Source of the DNA: Thiothrix fructosivorans | Lineage (GTDB): Bacteria; Pseudomonadota; Gammaproteobacteria; Thiotrichales; Thiotrichaceae | NCBI RefSeq assembly: GCF_017349355.1 | Contig: NZ_JAFMPM010000006.1 | Location: 1,240,001 to 1,304,000 of the forward strand | DNA: 64,000 bases | Direction of reading: 5' to 3' | In this document: one piece after another, positions 846 to 6,769 of the stretch | Layout of the letters: each line of letters begins with the position of its first letter | Numbering within the stretch: the stretch's first letter is position 1 | The notes under the pieces: generated by a model | Told to the model about the DNA's origin: nothing | What the model saw: only the letters and a program-made list of their open reading frames with translations | The model's database searches: none | Made by a program: the position numbers and the translations under genes

Positions 846-2018
846 TTATAGCACTTTCAGGAAAGCGATCAGGTCACGCTTTTCCGCATCGCTCAATTCG
901 ATTCGCGGCAAATCATGGTCTTTATTGGCTTGCTGCGCGGCTTGCACGTAGTAATCAATCACCGCGTCCAGTGTTGCCATGCGTCCGTCATGAAAATACG
1001 GGGCGGTTTGGGCAACATTGCGCAGGCTAGGCACTTTGAATGCGCCTGCGACACTGTGGCGGTTGCGGGTGAGGAATTGCAATTCGGTACAGGTTTCCGG
1101 CGCAGCATCGCTGTATTTGCCTTGGCAATTGAAGCGGTCGTTGCGCACGCTATCCAACACGGTGGCACGTCCGCTGTCTTTACCGAGCATTCCCGTGCCA
1201 ATATTCTGGAAAGTTTGGTTGGTGAGCATTGCGCCAGAATGGCACAAGATACATTGCGCTTTGCCCATGAATAAACGCGCTCCGGCAATTTCAGAGGGGG
1301 TTAGGGCGCTGCTGTTGTTGATCGCGGTGTCGAGCCGATTGGGGGCAAGCGCTAAGCTGCTAACGTAAGCGGCGATGAATTTCCCGGTTGCGGCGAATAC
1401 TTGATCCACCTGTTCACGCGCTGCTGGCGGCATACTTTTCCATGCCTGCAATTGTTCCAGCGTGCCGGAAGGGGAGGCGCTAGTGGGCAAAGTCGCTACC
1501 GTTTCGGGTGTCGGCAAGTCGGTGAGTAAGGCGTGGTATTGGGAGGCGTAGGCGGTATCTTCCAGCAGCAAGCGCACGATTTCCACGCGGGTGAAACCGT
1601 GTTCCGCCGGATTTTCCAACGGTGCGAGGGCTTGCGACCACAGGCTGTCTTTGCGCCCGTCCCAGAAAAACCAGTCGTTGTGCGCAACGCCTAGCAAAGA
1701 GGGGGTATTGCGCGTGCCTTTCGCTAAGGCTTCGGCAACGGGTTTGCCGTCACTGAAAGCGTGTTCGGGGCGATGGCAGGTCGCACAGGCAACTTGCCCA
1801 TTGCGGCTCAAACGTGGGTCGAAGAATAATTGCTTGCCCAATGCTGCTGCTTGCGGGTTATCGGCAAAGCGATTGCTGGGGTCATGCGCGGCGGGCAAGG
1901 TGGCGAGGTTGAGCGATTGCAAGGTGGCGCGTTCTTGCGCTGTCCACACGCTGCCGTCGTTACAAGCACTCATGCCCAGCACCAAGGCAATGCCGAGTAA
2001 GTAAGCGGTTGTGCGCAT
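846..2018 (-). CDS. MauG/CcpA-family di-haem cytochrome c peroxidase-like lipoprotein
   Basis: A 390-residue exported protein. The start ATG (complement of 2016-2018) is chosen because it gives a clean lipoprotein signal with the lipid-anchored Cys at residue 19 (LGMSAC). Two c-type haem sites are visible, CATCH at 78-82 and CILCH at 256-260. Family signatures are DWFFWDGR near 115-122 and FKVPSLRNV...TAPYFHDGR near 327-346. Relatives either reduce H2O2 in the periplasm (CcpA) or oxidise residues of a partner protein (MauG, MbnH); which applies cannot be read from sequence. Its ATG overlaps the stop of the upstream lipoprotein gene (TGATG), so the two are probably translationally coupled. It is last in the copper-amine-oxidase-like gene set. 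Confidence 0.85.
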   Translation of the reverse strand: MRTTAYLLGIALVLGMSACNDGSVWTAQERATLQSLNLATLPAAHDPSNRFADNPQAAALGKQLFFDPRLSRNGQVACATCHRPEHAFSDGKPVAEALAKGTRNTPSLLGVAHNDWFFWDGRKDSLWSQALAPLENPAEHGFTRVEIVRLLLEDTAYASQYHALLTDLPTPETVATLPTSASPSGTLEQLQAWKSMPPAAREQVDQVFAATGKFIAAYVSSLALAPNRLDTAINNSSALTPSEIAGARLFMGKAQCILCHSGAMLTNQTFQNIGTGMLGKDSGRATVLDSVRNDRFNCQGKYSDAAPETCTELQFLTRNRHSVAGAFKVPSLRNVAQTAPYFHDGRMATLDAVIDYYVQAAQQANKDHDLPRIELSDAEKRDLIAFLKVL

Positions 2019-2419
2019 CAGAAGGTGAACCGGAATACGATTTTGTCTTGCCCAGCCGCAGAGTGCAGCCAGAAACCCAGTACCCATTCACCCACCATGC
2101 TGTATTTCAGCCCGTCAATACGATACTCACCAACCTTACCCGTTGGGACAGCTTGCGGTGCGGTGGGTAAACCGTGTCCGTGGGCGGGCATTCCGCCATC
2201 CACGGTAAGGCTCAAGTCGGGCGGCAAGGCTTGCTCGCTGCTGAGTTGCAATGCACATTCCTGAAAGATTGCCACGGTGGGGGCGGTGGCGCAGGTCAGC
2301 GTGGCTTGGTACAGCCCGCTGCTGCTGACTTGGTGTTGTTGCCAAGTCGTCGCCGCATTGCCGCTACAGCCTGCCAAGAGCAGACTGAGCGTAGAGAATG
2401 TGAGCCATTTTGTTAACAT
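2018..2419 (-). CDS. small FixH/YtkA-like lipoprotein with His/Met motif
   Basis: A 133-residue predicted lipoprotein: signal peptide with lipobox LLLAGC, Cys at residue 18. The rest looks like a beta-sandwich of the FixH/YtkA-like type, with the motif VDGGMPAHGHGLP (Met77, His80, His82) and a C-terminal GEWVLGFWLHS strand. The His/Met cluster resembles metal ligands of periplasmic copper-handling folds; copper binding is inferred only. It lies 35 bases after the CAO-like gene and its TGA overlaps the ATG of the di-haem gene. Small partner proteins often sit next to MauG/MbnH-like enzymes, so it could be the substrate or metal donor of its neighbours. Confidence 0.6.
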   Translation of the reverse strand: MLTKWLTFSTLSLLLAGCSGNAATTWQQHQVSSSGLYQATLTCATAPTVAIFQECALQLSSEQALPPDLSLTVDGGMPAHGHGLPTAPQAVPTGKVGEYRIDGLKYSMVGEWVLGFWLHSAAGQDKIVFRFTF

Positions 2420-2454
2420 CGTTGTGTGCTCGCTGCTTCAGGTGTAATGAGGCG

Positions 2455-4839
2455 TTACTGGAAACGATACTCGAAATAGCGCGGTGTTGCCGTGTCATTC
2501 GGATAAATGTCCGCAACCGTGCCACCGAACGCCGCATTATTCCCCTTGAACATTAACCGTAGTTTACTGGGATTGCCTAACCAGCTACGTGGCAGGCTGA
2601 ATTCGGCTGTTTGTCCACTGATCGCATAGGTGGTAACGCCTTGTTCGACCCAGCTCCAACTCTCACCATCCCCCGTGTAACGCCACAGTGTGCTGCCTTC
2701 AAGCATGTATTCCGCGCCCATCGCATTAGCGGATGAGCCGCTGGTTTGGTAGCCCGTGGCAGTCGTGCTGTCGGTATCCAAATAGGCTTGATAGCCCCAG
2801 AAGCCGTCGGTATTCACCGCGTTCAAAGTGCGGTAAGCGATATACACGGTGCTGCTATTGTGCGCCATCCAACCTTCTTGCCAATCCAGCGGGTTGTTTG
2901 CGCCGGAAACATCGGTCGGGTCAGTGCCGAACGAGGTTAATGCGCTCCAATCGCTGAGGTTGCCATTGATGCTTAAACTGCTCACGGGGTTGCTAATGCC
3001 GCTATTGCTTGTGCCGCCACCGCCAGTATTACCGCCGCCTGTGGTCGTGGATACGTACATTTTGTAGGTAAAGTAACGCGTGGTTGCGCCGTTGATGAGT
3101 GCGCCATCGGGGTAAATGTCGCGGGTAGTGCCACCAAACGCCGCATTGTTGCCCCAGAACATCAGGCGCAATTCCGTGCTTGCGCCTAACCAACTGCGCG
3201 GGAAGCTGAATTCCGCGACATTGCCGCTGGTTTGCGTGGTCATTTTGCCTTGGTAAGCCCAACTCCAGCTTGTGCCTGTGCCGGTGTAACGCCAGACATT
3301 GCTGCCTTCGATTAAGTAATCCGCACCCAATGCGCCAGTTTTGTAGCCAGTGGTGGTGCTGGAATCGCCATCCAGATACGCCTGATACCCCCAGAAACCG
3401 CTGGTGTCGATCGCGTCTTTGGTTTTGTAGGCAAGGTATACGCGGTCGGTATCGTTGGCTAACCAGCCTTCCAGCCAGTTGAGCTTATTGTTTGCACCCG
3501 TGATTTCATCAGGGTCAGCACCAAACGAGGTGAGGCTTGCCCAATCGGTCAGATTGCCGTTCACGCTAATGCCGCTGGCGTTATTGGAAATTGTGCCAGT
3601 GGCAGGCGGTTGTGGTGGTGGGGGCGGCGGAGGTGGCGGCGTAGTGGTATCTGGTACGGTTTCCGCGCTGGTGCTCAACGGATTTTTATCGTGCCAGTCA
3701 CGCGGAATCACGCGGATGTGACTCCAATGTGCATCCATGCGCGGCGCATCTTCCGCACGCGGCATGTGGTAGAAGGTGGTGGAAGGCCACACCACGATGT
3801 CTTGCCCACTGAGGCTTTCACCGTTCACGAACGTGCTCAAGTCAGCCGCACACGCATTGGTGGTGGGGTTGTGAGACGCAAACAGTTCGCAACTTTTTTG
3901 CTTGGTCACAAAAAAATCGTGTTGGGTAAACGGTTCACTGCTAGGGCCGTCATCGCGTTGCACCGATTCGGGCAGTTGGATTTCGTAAGACATCGGCAAC
4001 CCTTTGGCGTTTTTCAGGTTGCTATCCATGATCCGCCAAGAGCGCACTTGCGTGGGGTCAACCGAACGCGCTGCTTCGCTGGTGAGCGCGGTATGGGTAC
4101 GCGCCATTTTGCCGTTGCTTTGGGTGTAGTTGATTTCTTCCACCACGTCGTCTGAGCCTGTGCCGCCGAGATCGAAGTCGAGTTTCCAGAAGAAATTGTG
4201 CAAATGCGCAATGCCGATTTTGTTGCTTTCCAGCAGCCAGCCGTGCGGGGCGAGGGTGCTTGCGCCAAAGCGTTGCAATGCGCCCGTAGCACCAATGCCC
4301 GGTTCGATTGCGCCGTCATCCAAGAAACGCCATTCGGGAATGTAGTTGTATGCACCAATTGCGGACACGCTGAATAGGCTGAGTGCATCCCCTTGCAGGC
4401 GGTCATTGTCAACGCTATAGGCATCATCGCGAGGACTGATTTGTTTGCACAGAATGTTTTTGCCTGCGTAATTCAGCAGTTGCCCGCCCACACATTCTTG
4501 CGTGGTGAGTGCGGACATATAACCGCCGCCTAGCCCGTAGTCGGACACGTCGTGGTAGCGAGCGCCATTGTCGTCATACGGGACGTGAATTTGTGCGACA
4601 GCGGCTTGGAATAACACCATGCGGCGCGTGCCATTGGGCGGGGTGTAATGGACGTGGTGCAACACCACGCCTTCGCGGTTGCGGTGTTCCCAGCACATAT
4701 CCCAGCGGGCTTGGTTGGGAAGCGTCGTGTCCACGTAATATTGGTCAGCACAGAATTCGGCAGCGTGCGCGGTGCTGGGCAGGAAGCCGTGCAGCGCTAA
4801 CAGTGCGAGGGCGGCATAGGCGTAGTTGGTTGTTTGCAT
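2455..4839 (-). CDS. copper amine oxidase-like exported protein with two C-terminal CBM9-like modules
   Basis: A 794-residue exported protein; ATG at 4839 is preferred over an upstream TTG because AGGGA lies just ahead and a signal peptide (residues 1-27) follows directly. Residues about 30-390 match the catalytic domain of copper amine oxidases (TPQ enzymes oxidising primary amines to aldehyde, NH3 and H2O2). Visible features are the likely catalytic-base Asp97 (YHDVSDYGLG), the likely TPQ-precursor Tyr164 (AIGAYNY; the usual Asn before it is Ala), Cu ligands His212 and His214 (AHLHNFF), and third ligand His358 in YHMPRAEDAPRM. The usual N2/N3 domains are absent. A Pro-rich linker (400-412), a first module (about 420-595), a Gly-rich linker and a second, similar module (about 616-794) follow. 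The modules resemble CBM9/DOMON-type beta-sandwiches (INGNLSDW, FWGYQAYLD). Enzyme activity is inferred. Confidence 0.75.
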   Translation of the reverse strand: MQTTNYAYAALALLALHGFLPSTAHAAEFCADQYYVDTTLPNQARWDMCWEHRNREGVVLHHVHYTPPNGTRRMVLFQAAVAQIHVPYDDNGARYHDVSDYGLGGGYMSALTTQECVGGQLLNYAGKNILCKQISPRDDAYSVDNDRLQGDALSLFSVSAIGAYNYIPEWRFLDDGAIEPGIGATGALQRFGASTLAPHGWLLESNKIGIAHLHNFFWKLDFDLGGTGSDDVVEEINYTQSNGKMARTHTALTSEAARSVDPTQVRSWRIMDSNLKNAKGLPMSYEIQLPESVQRDDGPSSEPFTQHDFFVTKQKSCELFASHNPTTNACAADLSTFVNGESLSGQDIVVWPSTTFYHMPRAEDAPRMDAHWSHIRVIPRDWHDKNPLSTSAETVPDTTTPPPPPPPPPQPPATGTISNNASGISVNGNLTDWASLTSFGADPDEITGANNKLNWLEGWLANDTDRVYLAYKTKDAIDTSGFWGYQAYLDGDSSTTTGYKTGALGADYLIEGSNVWRYTGTGTSWSWAYQGKMTTQTSGNVAEFSFPRSWLGASTELRLMFWGNNAAFGGTTRDIYPDGALINGATTRYFTYKMYVSTTTGGGNTGGGGTSNSGISNPVSSLSINGNLSDWSALTSFGTDPTDVSGANNPLDWQEGWMAHNSSTVYIAYRTLNAVNTDGFWGYQAYLDTDSTTATGYQTSGSSANAMGAEYMLEGSTLWRYTGDGESWSWVEQGVTTYAISGQTAEFSLPRSWLGNPSKLRLMFKGNNAAFGGTVADIYPNDTATPRYFEYRFQ

Positions 4840-4856
4840 GGTTGTTGTTCCCTGCC

Positions 4857-6017
4857 TCAAAACGGATTGGTGGAATGCCAGTCGCGTGGCAATAACTGAA
4901 AGCTGCTCCAGACGGTGCTGATGCGGTTGCTGTCTTCACTGCGCGGCAGGTGGTGATAGCTTTGCTTGTACCAAACCACTACATCTTGCTGGTTGATGCT
5001 TTCGGCATTGGCGAATTGGCTGACATTGCCGCCGCAAGCGCTGGTGGGATTGTTGGCAGCGTATTTTTCGCAAGCGTTGTAACGGGTGAAAAATACGTCT
5101 TGCGCTAACCAGCTTGCATTGCTGCTATTGGCGCGGCTGGCGTCGTAATGGTTGGGCACGAGTTCGTAGGAGATTTGCCCGACACTGCCATTGGTGAGGA
5201 TGCCGTCACGGATGCGCCAGAAACGTTTGGTTTCGGGGTCAAAGCTGCGTCCTGTTTCGGTGTTTAAGGCGGTAATCGCTTTGGTTTTGCGCAAGCGATC
5301 GGTAGTCGGCGTGCTGGTGATTTCTTCCACAACATCGTTGGCGTGAGTGGTGTCGAGGTCGAAATCGAGTCGCCATAACGCGTGATCGGTAAAGCCCGTG
5401 GCAATTTTGCCGCTTTTCATCGCAGGCCAGCCGTATTGGGCGGCAGTGGCATCGACCACGGGTAATTCGCCACTTAAACCGACACTGGGTTCAATCGTGC
5501 CGTTTTCAAAGAACCGCCAGCGCACGCTGTAGTTACGTGCACCGATTTGCGAGTGGCTGGCGAGTTCCAGCAATTGCCCTTGGCGTTGCGTAGTGTATTT
5601 ATAGAAATAGCCGTGGCTACGGGTGGTTTCGCACAGCACATTGCGTCCATTGTCAGCGCGAAGTGTACCGCCAGCGCAGTCTGGCGCGGTGAGGGTTTGC
5701 AGGTTGTTGCCGCCAAAGCCAGCCTCGGTGGTGAGCATGAGCGGGGCGACTGAGCCATCGTCGAATGCGGTTTCCAGTTGGGAAAGCGCGGCTTCACCGA
5801 GAACACGGCGGGCGGCGTTATTGGGGGCTTTGTAGGTGACTTGCGAAAGCACGATGCCTTCGGCGGGGCGCACTGCCCAGCACAAATTCCAGCTTGCGCC
5901 GGAGGCAAAGGTTTTGCTGAGGGTTTGTCCATTGCAAGCGGTGCTGGGGGCGGCAAACGCAGGGCTTTGCCACAAGGCAAGCAGGCTCAGTGCGAGTAGG
6001 GGAGTGCGGTAGTGCAT
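4857..6017 (-). CDS. copper amine oxidase-fold protein lacking catalytic residues (probable pseudoenzyme)
   Basis: A 386-residue paralogue of the CAO catalytic domain encoded just downstream, with its own signal peptide (about residues 1-23). Shared landmarks are SQIGARNYSVRWRFFENGTIEP, WRLDFDLDTTHANDVVEEI and HHLPRSEDSNRI...PRDWHSTNPF, given here only in part. Aligned by eye to the neighbour, the TPQ-precursor Tyr is Arg161, the catalytic-base Asp is Leu95 and the Cu pair His-x-His is Phe209-x-Asp211. Only the third Cu His (356) remains. The frame is intact with no stop, so it is a maintained protein, not a pseudogene. It may be a structural partner of the intact paralogue or a binding protein; that is inference. 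Its TGA lies 18 bases before the next gene's ATG. Confidence 0.7.
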   Translation of the reverse strand: MHYRTPLLALSLLALWQSPAFAAPSTACNGQTLSKTFASGASWNLCWAVRPAEGIVLSQVTYKAPNNAARRVLGEAALSQLETAFDDGSVAPLMLTTEAGFGGNNLQTLTAPDCAGGTLRADNGRNVLCETTRSHGYFYKYTTQRQGQLLELASHSQIGARNYSVRWRFFENGTIEPSVGLSGELPVVDATAAQYGWPAMKSGKIATGFTDHALWRLDFDLDTTHANDVVEEITSTPTTDRLRKTKAITALNTETGRSFDPETKRFWRIRDGILTNGSVGQISYELVPNHYDASRANSSNASWLAQDVFFTRYNACEKYAANNPTSACGGNVSQFANAESINQQDVVVWYKQSYHHLPRSEDSNRISTVWSSFQLLPRDWHSTNPF

Positions 6018-6029
6018 GGTGGTGTTCCC

Positions 6030-6719
6030 TTAGAAGCCGATATTTTGGGTAATAACGCCTGCGGACAGGTTGACGATGGGGCTGACTTCAAACACTACTG
6101 AGTCAGCGGTGTAGAGCAGCACTTGGGCGCAACGGTGTAAACCGCATTGCTTGGAGGCATCATTGAGTTGTTCGGGCAAGCTGGAGGCGTGGAAAACAAA
6201 GGCTTTGACTTGCAATTGCTGCGGGTCGGTCAGGGTTTTACCGGTAATGCGCTTGAATTCGGCATCCAGCAGGCTGCGCTGTTCGTCATCAGCAAAGATT
6301 AGGTCGGAGGCGCGTTTGAGTTCGTTATCGGTCAGCGGTAATTGCAGGTTTTTCTCGCGTTTGTTGGACAGGATTTTATTGGTATCCAAGTCAATCACGC
6401 TAATGATGGTTTCATTGGTGGCGTAGTCGTAGGTGTACACGTCGGCAAGGCGGGCAGTTTCGCCTTTGGCATTGAGATGGCGTTCGACCAGCAAGCGTTC
6501 TGGGGCTGGGATGCTGGCGTTGTTGGCGTTGTTGGCGTTGTTGGCGTTGTTGGCGAGTTGGCGGGTGGTGGCGACGGGTGGGGCGCTGCTAGCTTGCTGA
6601 ATGGCACGTTCCATTTCGGCGGCGCTGAGTGGATCGAGGCTACCCGCCTGAGTAGGCAACGCTGCCAGCACTAAGGGGAGGCAGAGCAATAAAGAACGCA
6701 GGGACGGTACGTTTGGCAT
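6030..6719 (-). CDS. exported protein resembling CAO N2/N3 domains
   Basis: A 229-residue exported protein (from ATG 6719; another ATG at 6731 adds four residues, and neither has a strong Shine-Dalgarno). A signal peptide (about 1-25) is followed by SLDPLSAAEMERAI, which resembles the HPLDPL-x-x-x-EI opening of CAO domain N2. Residues 90-117 (ADVYTYDYATNETIISVIDL) fit the N2 sheet, and 127-160 (LPLTDNELKRASDLIF) fit the start of N3. Residues 57-68 are an Asn-Asn-Ala microrepeat. It is first in the run of CAO-like genes, 12 bases ahead of the pseudoenzyme. So the N-terminal domains normally fused to a CAO appear to be a separate chain here. The match is by motif only; the C-terminal third is not recognised. 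Confidence 0.55.
   Translation of the reverse strand: MPNVPSLRSLLLCLPLVLAALPTQAGSLDPLSAAEMERAIQQASSAPPVATTRQLANNANNANNANNASIPAPERLLVERHLNAKGETARLADVYTYDYATNETIISVIDLDTNKILSNKREKNLQLPLTDNELKRASDLIFADDEQRSLLDAEFKRITGKTLTDPQQLQVKAFVFHASSLPEQLNDASKQCGLHRCAQVLLYTADSVVFEVSPIVNLSAGVITQNIGF
6515..6559 (-). repeat. 9-bp microsatellite encoding Asn-Asn-Ala
   Basis: About five tandem copies of a 9-base unit (plus-strand TTGGCGTTG) lie inside the CAO N-domain-like gene and give NNA repeats in the linker after the first helix. Copy-number change would stay in frame and only alter linker length. Confidence 0.8.
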
Positions 6720-6769
6720 GACTGAAACCATTTATTGTGAATCTTGGTAACAGTCTAGGCAGGGAGTGA

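Follow-up and report, generated by a model that had tools for sequence, protein, structure and literature searches.

Copper amine oxidases (CAOs) are known as homodimeric, self-maturing enzymes. What, then, is encoded by a locus in which the parts of such an enzyme appear to be spread over three genes, followed by two genes for lipoproteins resembling YtkA and the di-haem enzyme MauG? The locus lies in the genome of Thiothrix fructosivorans, within a stretch of 64,000 nucleotides (hereafter the window; contig NZ_JAFMPM010000006.1, positions 1,240,001 to 1,304,000), where the listing of open reading frames (ORFs) of the 64-kb window revealed five genes for exported proteins, all in one direction on the minus strand (positions 846-6719 of the window). 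In order of transcription these encode the N-chain (229 aa), the pseudo chain (386 aa), the cat chain (794-801 aa), a YtkA-like lipoprotein (133 aa) and a di-haem lipoprotein (390-413 aa). We lean towards a reading in which the locus encodes an exported CAO-type enzyme of three chains with one live site, together with a YtkA/di-haem maturation pair. The three-chain split itself is, on the sequence and model comparisons given below, almost certainly real.

Fold assignment of the three chains

The first gene (6030-6719, minus strand) encodes the N-chain, which has a Sec-type signal peptide and corresponds to the detached N2-N3 domains of a CAO; its ORF extends over 6030-6731 (233 aa), and the ATG at 6719 gives 229 aa. 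No significant Pfam match was obtained for this protein, the best being FlaG (E 0.049). For its AlphaFold model (m68ed7de4c771; predicted local distance difference test, pLDDT, 76.9), all 50 PDB chains among the Foldseek matches listed are CAOs (best E 3.6e-8). VIA-align superposed the model on residues 19-209 of the Hansenula CAO (1ekm) with Z 11.2 and a root-mean-square deviation of 3.3 over 172 residues, and on residues 9-192 of AGAO with Z about 9, the superposed domains being N2-N3; CAOs occupied 49 of the 50 rows listed, the exception being a 61-residue partial match. A PDB search with the N-chain alignment returned weak matches only, CAOs first (E 0.038), and Cys196 and Cys201 are invariant in the 20 rows of an N-chain alignment. 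The primary-amine oxidase model NF008559 of NCBIfam aligns with the N-chain at profile positions 12-128 of 648 (E 3.7e-6), with the cat chain at 246-628 and with the pseudo chain at 373-627, each far under the model cut-off. The three chains thus map onto successive stretches of a single enzyme, whose catalytic stretch is represented twice.

The next two genes encode proteins matching Pfam Cu_amine_oxid (PF01179), with 112 bits for the pseudo chain (4857-6017, minus strand; 386 aa with a signal peptide) and 158 bits for the cat chain (2455-4839, minus strand). The cat ORF (2455-4860) yields 801 aa from a TTG and 794 aa from the ATG at 4839, the latter start giving the better signal-peptide fit; signal peptides and lipoboxes were called by eye, and residue numbers of the cat chain follow the 801-aa ORF (start TTG 4860). 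The AlphaFold model of the cat chain matched AGAO (Foldseek E 6.3e-23), but is weak overall (pLDDT 63; predicted template modelling score 0.48), with low confidence in the tail, and no geometry was taken from it. For the pseudo chain the CAO fold rests on sequence; the closest named matches of this 386-aa protein are from Thiothrix lacustris, T. caldifontis and a Thiothrix metagenome-assembled genome (80-89% identity).

The preliminary description of this DNA, made from the sequence alone, had reported five same-strand exported proteins with 1-base overlaps or short gaps, the first of them a CAO N2/N3-like chain. The arrangement is present as described, the preferred starts setting the first four genes 12, 17 and 35 bases apart and letting the last two overlap by a single base, and the 50 CAO chains and the NF008559 match bear out the N2/N3 assignment. 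The structure prediction that it had proposed as a check returned CAO folds for the N-chain and the cat chain, the pseudo chain being assigned by sequence. Promoter and terminator scans scored no better than shuffles, and an Rfam scan of the window returned four tRNAs and nothing else.

Occurrence of the gene set

Genome searches covered one phylum. Within the order, matches to the N-chain were found in 28 of 63 genomes, all 63 belonging to the Thiotrichaceae, at a total of 31 places. The N-chain, pseudo and cat genes stand together in fixed order at 29 of these 31 places, and all five genes form one run at 21, a combination seen only in Thiotrichaceae. Such five-gene runs include a second cat gene in two cases (L075, L080), and in another the contig stops within the di-haem gene (L112). 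Contig ends cut six further places earlier (L081, L109, L110, L113, L114, L119), two such genomes having the YtkA-like and di-haem genes on another contig (L210, L211). At L074 the cat gene is missing, and that genome has one elsewhere (L084). T. fructosivorans itself possesses a second copy (L007, contig C5) that consists of the first three genes only. In two places (L082, 5322-10707; L116, 6830-12278) the order is pseudo-cat-N-pseudo-cat, that is, two pseudo/cat pairs for each N-chain, which possibly hints at the stoichiometry.

A class-wide draw gave N-chain matches in 3 of 369 genomes, one of which (G668) lies outside the family of the window. In the order of G668, 30 of 48 genomes contain N-chain matches at 39 places, all in a second family (hereafter f207), and the three genes recur in the same order at 33 of them; the other six comprise four places cut by contig ends, a weak match (L234) and an ordinary single-chain CAO (L235). 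Gene order in other genomes, which the preliminary description had named as a check, is thus conserved for the first three genes in two families. A contig-wide scan with one of the locus proteins recovered three Thiothrix loci, and the cat profile, run on a phylum-wide draw of 398 genomes, picked up no additional split chain scoring higher than ordinary CAOs do, its best match beyond the genome of the window reaching 59 bits. The split set is thus no oddity of a single genus, yet neither is it general, as the 3 of 369 genomes of the class attest.

Such conservation bears on one alternative, namely that the pseudo and cat genes are a decaying duplicate, remnants of one broken CAO gene. A 386-aa chain without an active site and a cat ORF starting with TTG would fit decay; against it stand open frames, signal peptides, a gene order shared by dozens of genomes from both families and invariant residues in all chains, and neither frameshifts nor stops were seen in those places of relatives that were read. 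We consider this explanation extremely improbable. Chance or gene decay as the source of the arrangement is ruled out by the conservation of its order in two bacterial families.

Active sites of the cat and pseudo chains

Active-site residues were counted in 71 cat chains (38 from Thiotrichaceae, 33 from f207), 68 pseudo chains and 14 controls, the controls being the single-chain CAOs that remained from 18 loci once repeats had been removed, with L235 placed among them. Truncated genes (cat in L163, the third ORF in L174 and pseudo in L224) were left out, as was the weak match L234, and second di-haem copies and cat duplicates in L075 and L080 (two cat genes each) were treated as separate rows. 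Six residues, namely the precursor Tyr171, His219, His221, His365, the base Asp104 and the gate Tyr95, are kept in all 71 cat chains. Conversely, not one of the 68 pseudo chains retains either His of the HxH pair or the base Asp; the third His persists in 20 and a Tyr at the topaquinone (TPQ) position in 7. In the window, the pseudo chain has Arg at the TPQ position and neither the HxH copper pair nor the base Asp, in agreement with the earlier description of a CAO-fold chain without catalytic residues. This pattern points to selection for amine chemistry at one site only. The seven pseudo chains with a Tyr at the TPQ position (L076, L078, L079, L111, L112, L113, L114) are all from Thiotrichaceae, and retain it despite the loss of the HxH pair and Asp.

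The published TPQ consensus is T-x-x-N-Y-D/E (PMC3382800). In the window, Tyr171 (codon 4348-4350, minus strand) is found within S-A-I-G-A-Y-N-Y, as opposed to S-T-x-G-N-Y-D-Y in several controls. The residue preceding it is Ala, Ser, Glu or Thr, never Asn, in the 71 cat chains (Asn in 14/14 controls), the residue following it is Asp or Glu in none (Asp in 13/14 controls), and the Thr of the consensus occurs in one cat chain (9/14 controls). The cat chain, previously described as intact, therefore keeps the Tyr, His and Asp residues of the site and lacks the Asn and Asp/Glu of the consensus.

The cat chain also carries a tail, an addition to what had been described, in which a Pro-rich linker is joined by two repeats, each about 180 aa long, at the C-terminus (2455-3654, minus strand); Pfam gave no match there. 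Large ORFs from further genomes of the phylum contain similar stretches; beside one five-gene locus, on the opposite strand, lies a gene for a 1104-aa protein with such repeats (L078, 3-3317; 362 bits). Among seven cat chains from outside the window scanned against Pfam, six have tails of immunoglobulin (Ig), cadherin or MAM type, in line with a surface location of the enzyme. Several cat chains have GlyGly-CTERM-like ends by eye only, which we do not count as evidence, and NCBIfam found no GlyGly-CTERM in the five f207 chains scanned.

Are these proteins still an amine oxidase? They might instead form a complex that binds copper or a surface and whose Tyr stays unmodified, as the lost TPQ motif, the dead partner chain and the Ig, cadherin or MAM-type tails on six of the seven scanned chains would allow. 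The base Asp and gate Tyr, needless for copper binding alone, are nevertheless present in 71/71 cat chains, with Asp in 0/68 pseudo chains; we hence regard a purely binding role as unlikely. The conservation of the base Asp and gate Tyr argues for amine oxidation, and that the locus encodes a quinone-dependent amine oxidase is reasonably probable.

Dimer interface and phylogeny

In the controls, arm I bears a His-x-acid pair, which we equate from alignments with His355/Asp357 of AGAO. By alignment this pair is present in 1 of 139 split chains (cat and pseudo) as against 14/14 controls; an alignment-free search for His-x-Asp/Glu anywhere in positions 138-165 found it in 10/139 and 14/14, respectively. 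Arm I is also shorter, with 33-36 residues from position 138 to the Tyr in the split chains versus 39-47 in the controls. A figure legend on AGAO names D383 and T378, the +1 and -4 residues of the TPQ motif, together with D357 and H355 (PMC4497604). By these alignments, the cross-dimer link is gone at its two ends in cat as well as pseudo chains, a joint loss that may account for part of the loss of the TPQ motif. It also suggests that dimerisation of the split enzyme departs somewhat from the canonical mode and that its interface has been rewired.

All 139 split chains possess a Cys pair (C37/C56) that is absent from the 14 controls, and every split chain falls on one side of a branch with 100% support in the Shimodaira-Hasegawa-like approximate likelihood ratio test (SH-aLRT). 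The shared cysteines and the fully supported branch indicate that cat and pseudo are close lineages. Trees were computed from 99 of 116 rows (near-copies and two cut rows omitted) and from 39 of 116. The best trees join the pseudo chains of both families, with SH-aLRT values of 87-88 that are not significant, and the cat chains with 77 in the smaller tree. A single cat/pseudo duplication before the split of the two families is therefore favoured but not proven. A constraint joining cat and pseudo by family was not rejected by the approximately unbiased (AU) test (p-AU 0.07 and 0.06), and the pseudo chain may accordingly have arisen independently in each family.

The YtkA-like lipoprotein and the di-haem enzyme

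The fourth gene (2018-2419, minus strand) encodes a 133-aa lipoprotein (lipobox LAGC) that scores 22.7 bits with Pfam YtkA (PF13115; E 1.6e-4), under the gathering cut-off of 25.9. Its motif consists of Met77..His80-x-His82..Met108 plus Trp112; Met77, His80 and His82 are found in 43/43 YtkA-like rows, and Met108 and Trp112 in 42/42 readable rows, consistent with its earlier description as a His/Met-rich lipoprotein. Only CAO-linked rows have Cys43 and Cys55 (25/25 versus 0/18). Searching the PDB with the YtkA alignment yielded a single match, to a copper resistance protein, that lacks significance (E 0.64). Matches of at least 90 bits occur in 25 of the 28 Thiotrichaceae genomes with an N-chain, the remaining three being drafts of 69-81% completeness, and in none of the 35 other genomes of the family.

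The last gene (846-2018, minus strand) encodes the MauG/MbnH-like lipoprotein, which the preliminary description had called MauG/CcpA-like; it has lipobox MSAC and scores 134 bits against Pfam CCP_MauG. Its ORF (846-2087) is 413 aa long, and 390 aa from the ATG at 2018, which overlaps the preceding stop by one base; residue numbers follow the 413-aa ORF (start 2087). Two CxxCH motifs (101-105 and 279-283) are accompanied by distal Gln152 and Glu162 and by the inter-haem Trp142. In MauG the sixth haem ligand is Tyr294. Tyr380 of the di-haem protein, 19 residues past Thr361, occupies the sixth-ligand place, where MbnH also has Tyr and the bacterial cytochrome c peroxidase (bCCP) of Nitrosomonas has Met; it aligns with the Met of 1iqc that is the haem ligand there, which sets the protein apart from Met-ligated bCCPs. 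The ligand role of Tyr380 is deduced from its 19-residue offset from the Thr, in BthA the ligand Tyr463 likewise standing 19 residues after Lys444, the equivalent of MauG Thr275 (PMC6405878). Tyr380 is kept in 23/23 readable core rows and 9/9 others, Gln152 in 24/24 core rows and 7/9 others, Glu162 in 24/24 core rows and Trp142 in 20/24. A Cys pair (C321/C333) occurs in 23/23 readable CAO-linked rows versus 3/9 others. Scores with the NCBIfam models lie well under their cut-offs, both for MauG (159.7 bits; cut-off 443.85) and for MbnH (149.4 bits; cut-off 362.85).

The two genes also travel without the oxidase. From 20 YtkA regions fetched, two of which turned out to be ends of core loci, 18 places away from the core remained, nine with an adjoining di-haem gene and nine without. 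The YtkA-like protein as an exclusive partner of the CAO was hence rejected. Two of the nine pairs have the YtkA-like stretch within a larger protein. In L215 (8308-10732) this is a 414-aa protein that combines an amidohydrolase domain with a YtkA-like domain at the C-terminus, its gene lying immediately ahead of the one for a MauG-like di-haem protein; in L216 (7677-10344) a 442-aa ORF containing YtkA is arranged likewise. These belong to 23 YtkA matches of f207 in frames of 414-476 aa. Two Thiotrichaceae loci without a CAO core (L212, 7633-10409; L213, 6879-9804) have the pair followed by a protein of 355-361 aa, with a weak MauE match under the cut-off in L212 (PF07291, E 0.0012), and in L208 (3459-9857) the pair has a divergent neighbour, an ORF of 2132 aa that contains two CxxCH motifs and matches di-haem proteins weakly. 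The long YtkA-containing proteins suggest that MauG-like enzymes are repeatedly partnered by YtkA-like domains, and the pair itself looks like a separate module that was recruited to the oxidase in Thiotrichaceae.

What might the di-haem enzyme do there? One option is that it acts directly on the cat chain, installing or completing the quinone at Tyr171 after the self-catalysis motif had been lost. The motif is indeed gone from all 71 cat chains, the MauG/BthA-type Tyr and distal Gln and Glu are in place in every readable core row, and in Thiotrichaceae the di-haem gene belongs to the same gene run. Yet f207 shows the same loss of the motif with no di-haem gene found beside the core, and the 14 f207 genomes that have an N-chain and no YtkA-like match contain weak di-haem stretches only (best 99.7 bits, its frame including a second stretch of 74.7); the complete di-haem proteins from YtkA pairs of f207 (L205, L207, L208) reach 423-446 bits with a similar profile, a figure not strictly comparable with those of stretches. 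As the pair moreover exists without the core, direct action appears unlikely, and a direct role in maturing, or accepting electrons from, the CAO, as had been supposed at the outset, is conceivable. Slightly less likely still is the fuller version of this idea, in which the oxidase gave up self-catalysed TPQ formation and, in Thiotrichaceae, the MauG-like enzyme makes or completes the cofactor and the YtkA-like protein loads the copper. If true, it would to our knowledge be the first case in which an enzyme other than the oxidase itself helps to make a topaquinone-type cofactor.

Alternatively, the di-haem protein could be a plain peroxidase that removes the H2O2 which CAOs release (PMC3382800), a role compatible with its bCCP_MauG fold and complete distal pocket, and with BthA, likewise Tyr-ligated, being a peroxidase (PMC6405878). 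The Tyr in the sixth-ligand place, Met in the Nitrosomonas bCCP, speaks against it, the YtkA-like partner and the pairs without any CAO would be left in need of another reason, and no such peroxidase was found beside the f207 cores. We consider it improbable, on a par with the purely binding complex discussed above.

Proposed function and comparison with known systems

The reading that we favour would run as follows. The cat and pseudo chains would form a heterodimer of D4:D4' type with one live site, and the N-chain would bind where the covalent N2-N3 domains of other CAOs sit; that the three chains assemble into a heteromer is likely. At the live site, a quinone would form from Tyr171 with copper and O2, and the enzyme, probably located at the cell surface, would oxidise an amine with release of aldehyde, H2O2 and ammonia. 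The YtkA-like lipoprotein would supply the copper, and the MauG-like enzyme would oxidise or redox-tune that lipoprotein as the di-haem enzyme MbnH does MbnP, making the last two genes a copper-delivery/maturation pair for the oxidase. We put the chance that the di-haem enzyme acts through the YtkA-like protein a little short of even. The make-up of the pair resembles the mtoX-SCO1/SenC-mauG operon (PMC5739008), in which an exported copper oxidase is likewise accompanied by a copper-chaperone-type and a MauG-like protein, and copper delivery or maturation via the YtkA-like protein is for this reason favoured over direct quinone synthesis; unlike here, the oxidase of that operon is a methanethiol oxidase of the SBP56 family and the chaperone is SCO1/SenC.

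Several observations weigh against this proposal. The cat chains depart from the TPQ consensus in every case (Asn 0/71, Asp/Glu 0/71). In AGAO the N381A variant still forms TPQ, at 1/180 of the rate and with a kcat of 1/160 (PMC9491219); a histamine oxidase with a change of the +1 Asp (D403Q) has a higher turnover (cited in PMC4497604), so some motif changes are harmless. A quinone in the cat chain is thus chemically possible, yet would be slow by the N381A yardstick unless compensated. Copper binding by the YtkA-like protein is read from its conserved Met and His residues, in a protein whose family score stays below the Pfam cut-off. Neither a YtkA-like nor a di-haem gene was found in the 39 f207 stretches with an N-chain, 14 of 30 N-chain genomes of f207 have no YtkA-like match at all, and three second copies in Thiotrichaceae (L007, L082, L116) lack the pair. 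Orphan cat chains also exist (L057, L058, L059, L083, L084), and the cat chain may therefore not always need its partners. The earlier proposal of a multi-chain amine oxidase or complex accordingly survives in its first half, a multi-chain oxidase being the natural reading of the conserved split set, but membership of the di-haem protein in every such oxidase finds no support.

With CAOs such as AGAO, ECAO and HPAO (PF01179) the split chains share the N2-N3 and catalytic folds and, in the cat chain, the copper His triad, base Asp, gate Tyr and precursor Tyr. They differ in that N2, N3 and the catalytic domain, united in one chain in those enzymes, are here separate genes, in the second catalytic-fold chain without an active site, and in the loss of T-x-x-N-Y-D/E and of the His-x-acid pair on a shortened arm I. 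According to a 2012 review, all CAOs structurally characterised by then were homodimeric (PMC3382800). The closest parallel to one live and one dead catalytic chain, if the natural chains indeed dimerise, is the engineered AGAO WT/Y382F heterodimer, which functions normally per active monomer (PMC4497604) and so makes a one-site dimer chemically sound; it is man-made and differs by one residue, whereas the split chains are natural and deeply diverged, with N2-N3 separate. MauG and MbnH (TIGR03791, TIGR04039) share with the di-haem protein the two CxxCH motifs, the sixth-place Tyr, the distal Gln/Glu and a secreted partner encoded next door; here, unlike in those systems, scores lie under the cut-offs, the partner is YtkA-like, the enzyme is a lipoprotein and it has the extra Cys pair. 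In open-access literature, subscription papers being mostly outside the search, we found no split or heteromeric CAO and no CAO with MauG or YtkA, and the portion of PMC12058724 consulted mentions neither a heterodimer nor a pseudoenzyme; the earlier remark that no system of this composition had been described agrees with this. The parts are of known kinds; absent from the literature searched were a CAO divided three ways with one partner dead, one deprived of the TPQ motif and of the arm I pair, and the five genes as a set.

Biological significance

Family models match the chains in part or under their cut-offs, so that routine annotation is likely to miss the set. What these bacteria possess is probably a naturally split, heteromeric CAO with a rewired interface. 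Such an enzyme lets one ask whether quinone formation truly depends on the conserved Asn and Asp/Glu, what role falls to the second subunit, and whether the action of MauG-like enzymes extends beyond methylamine dehydrogenase to copper enzymes.

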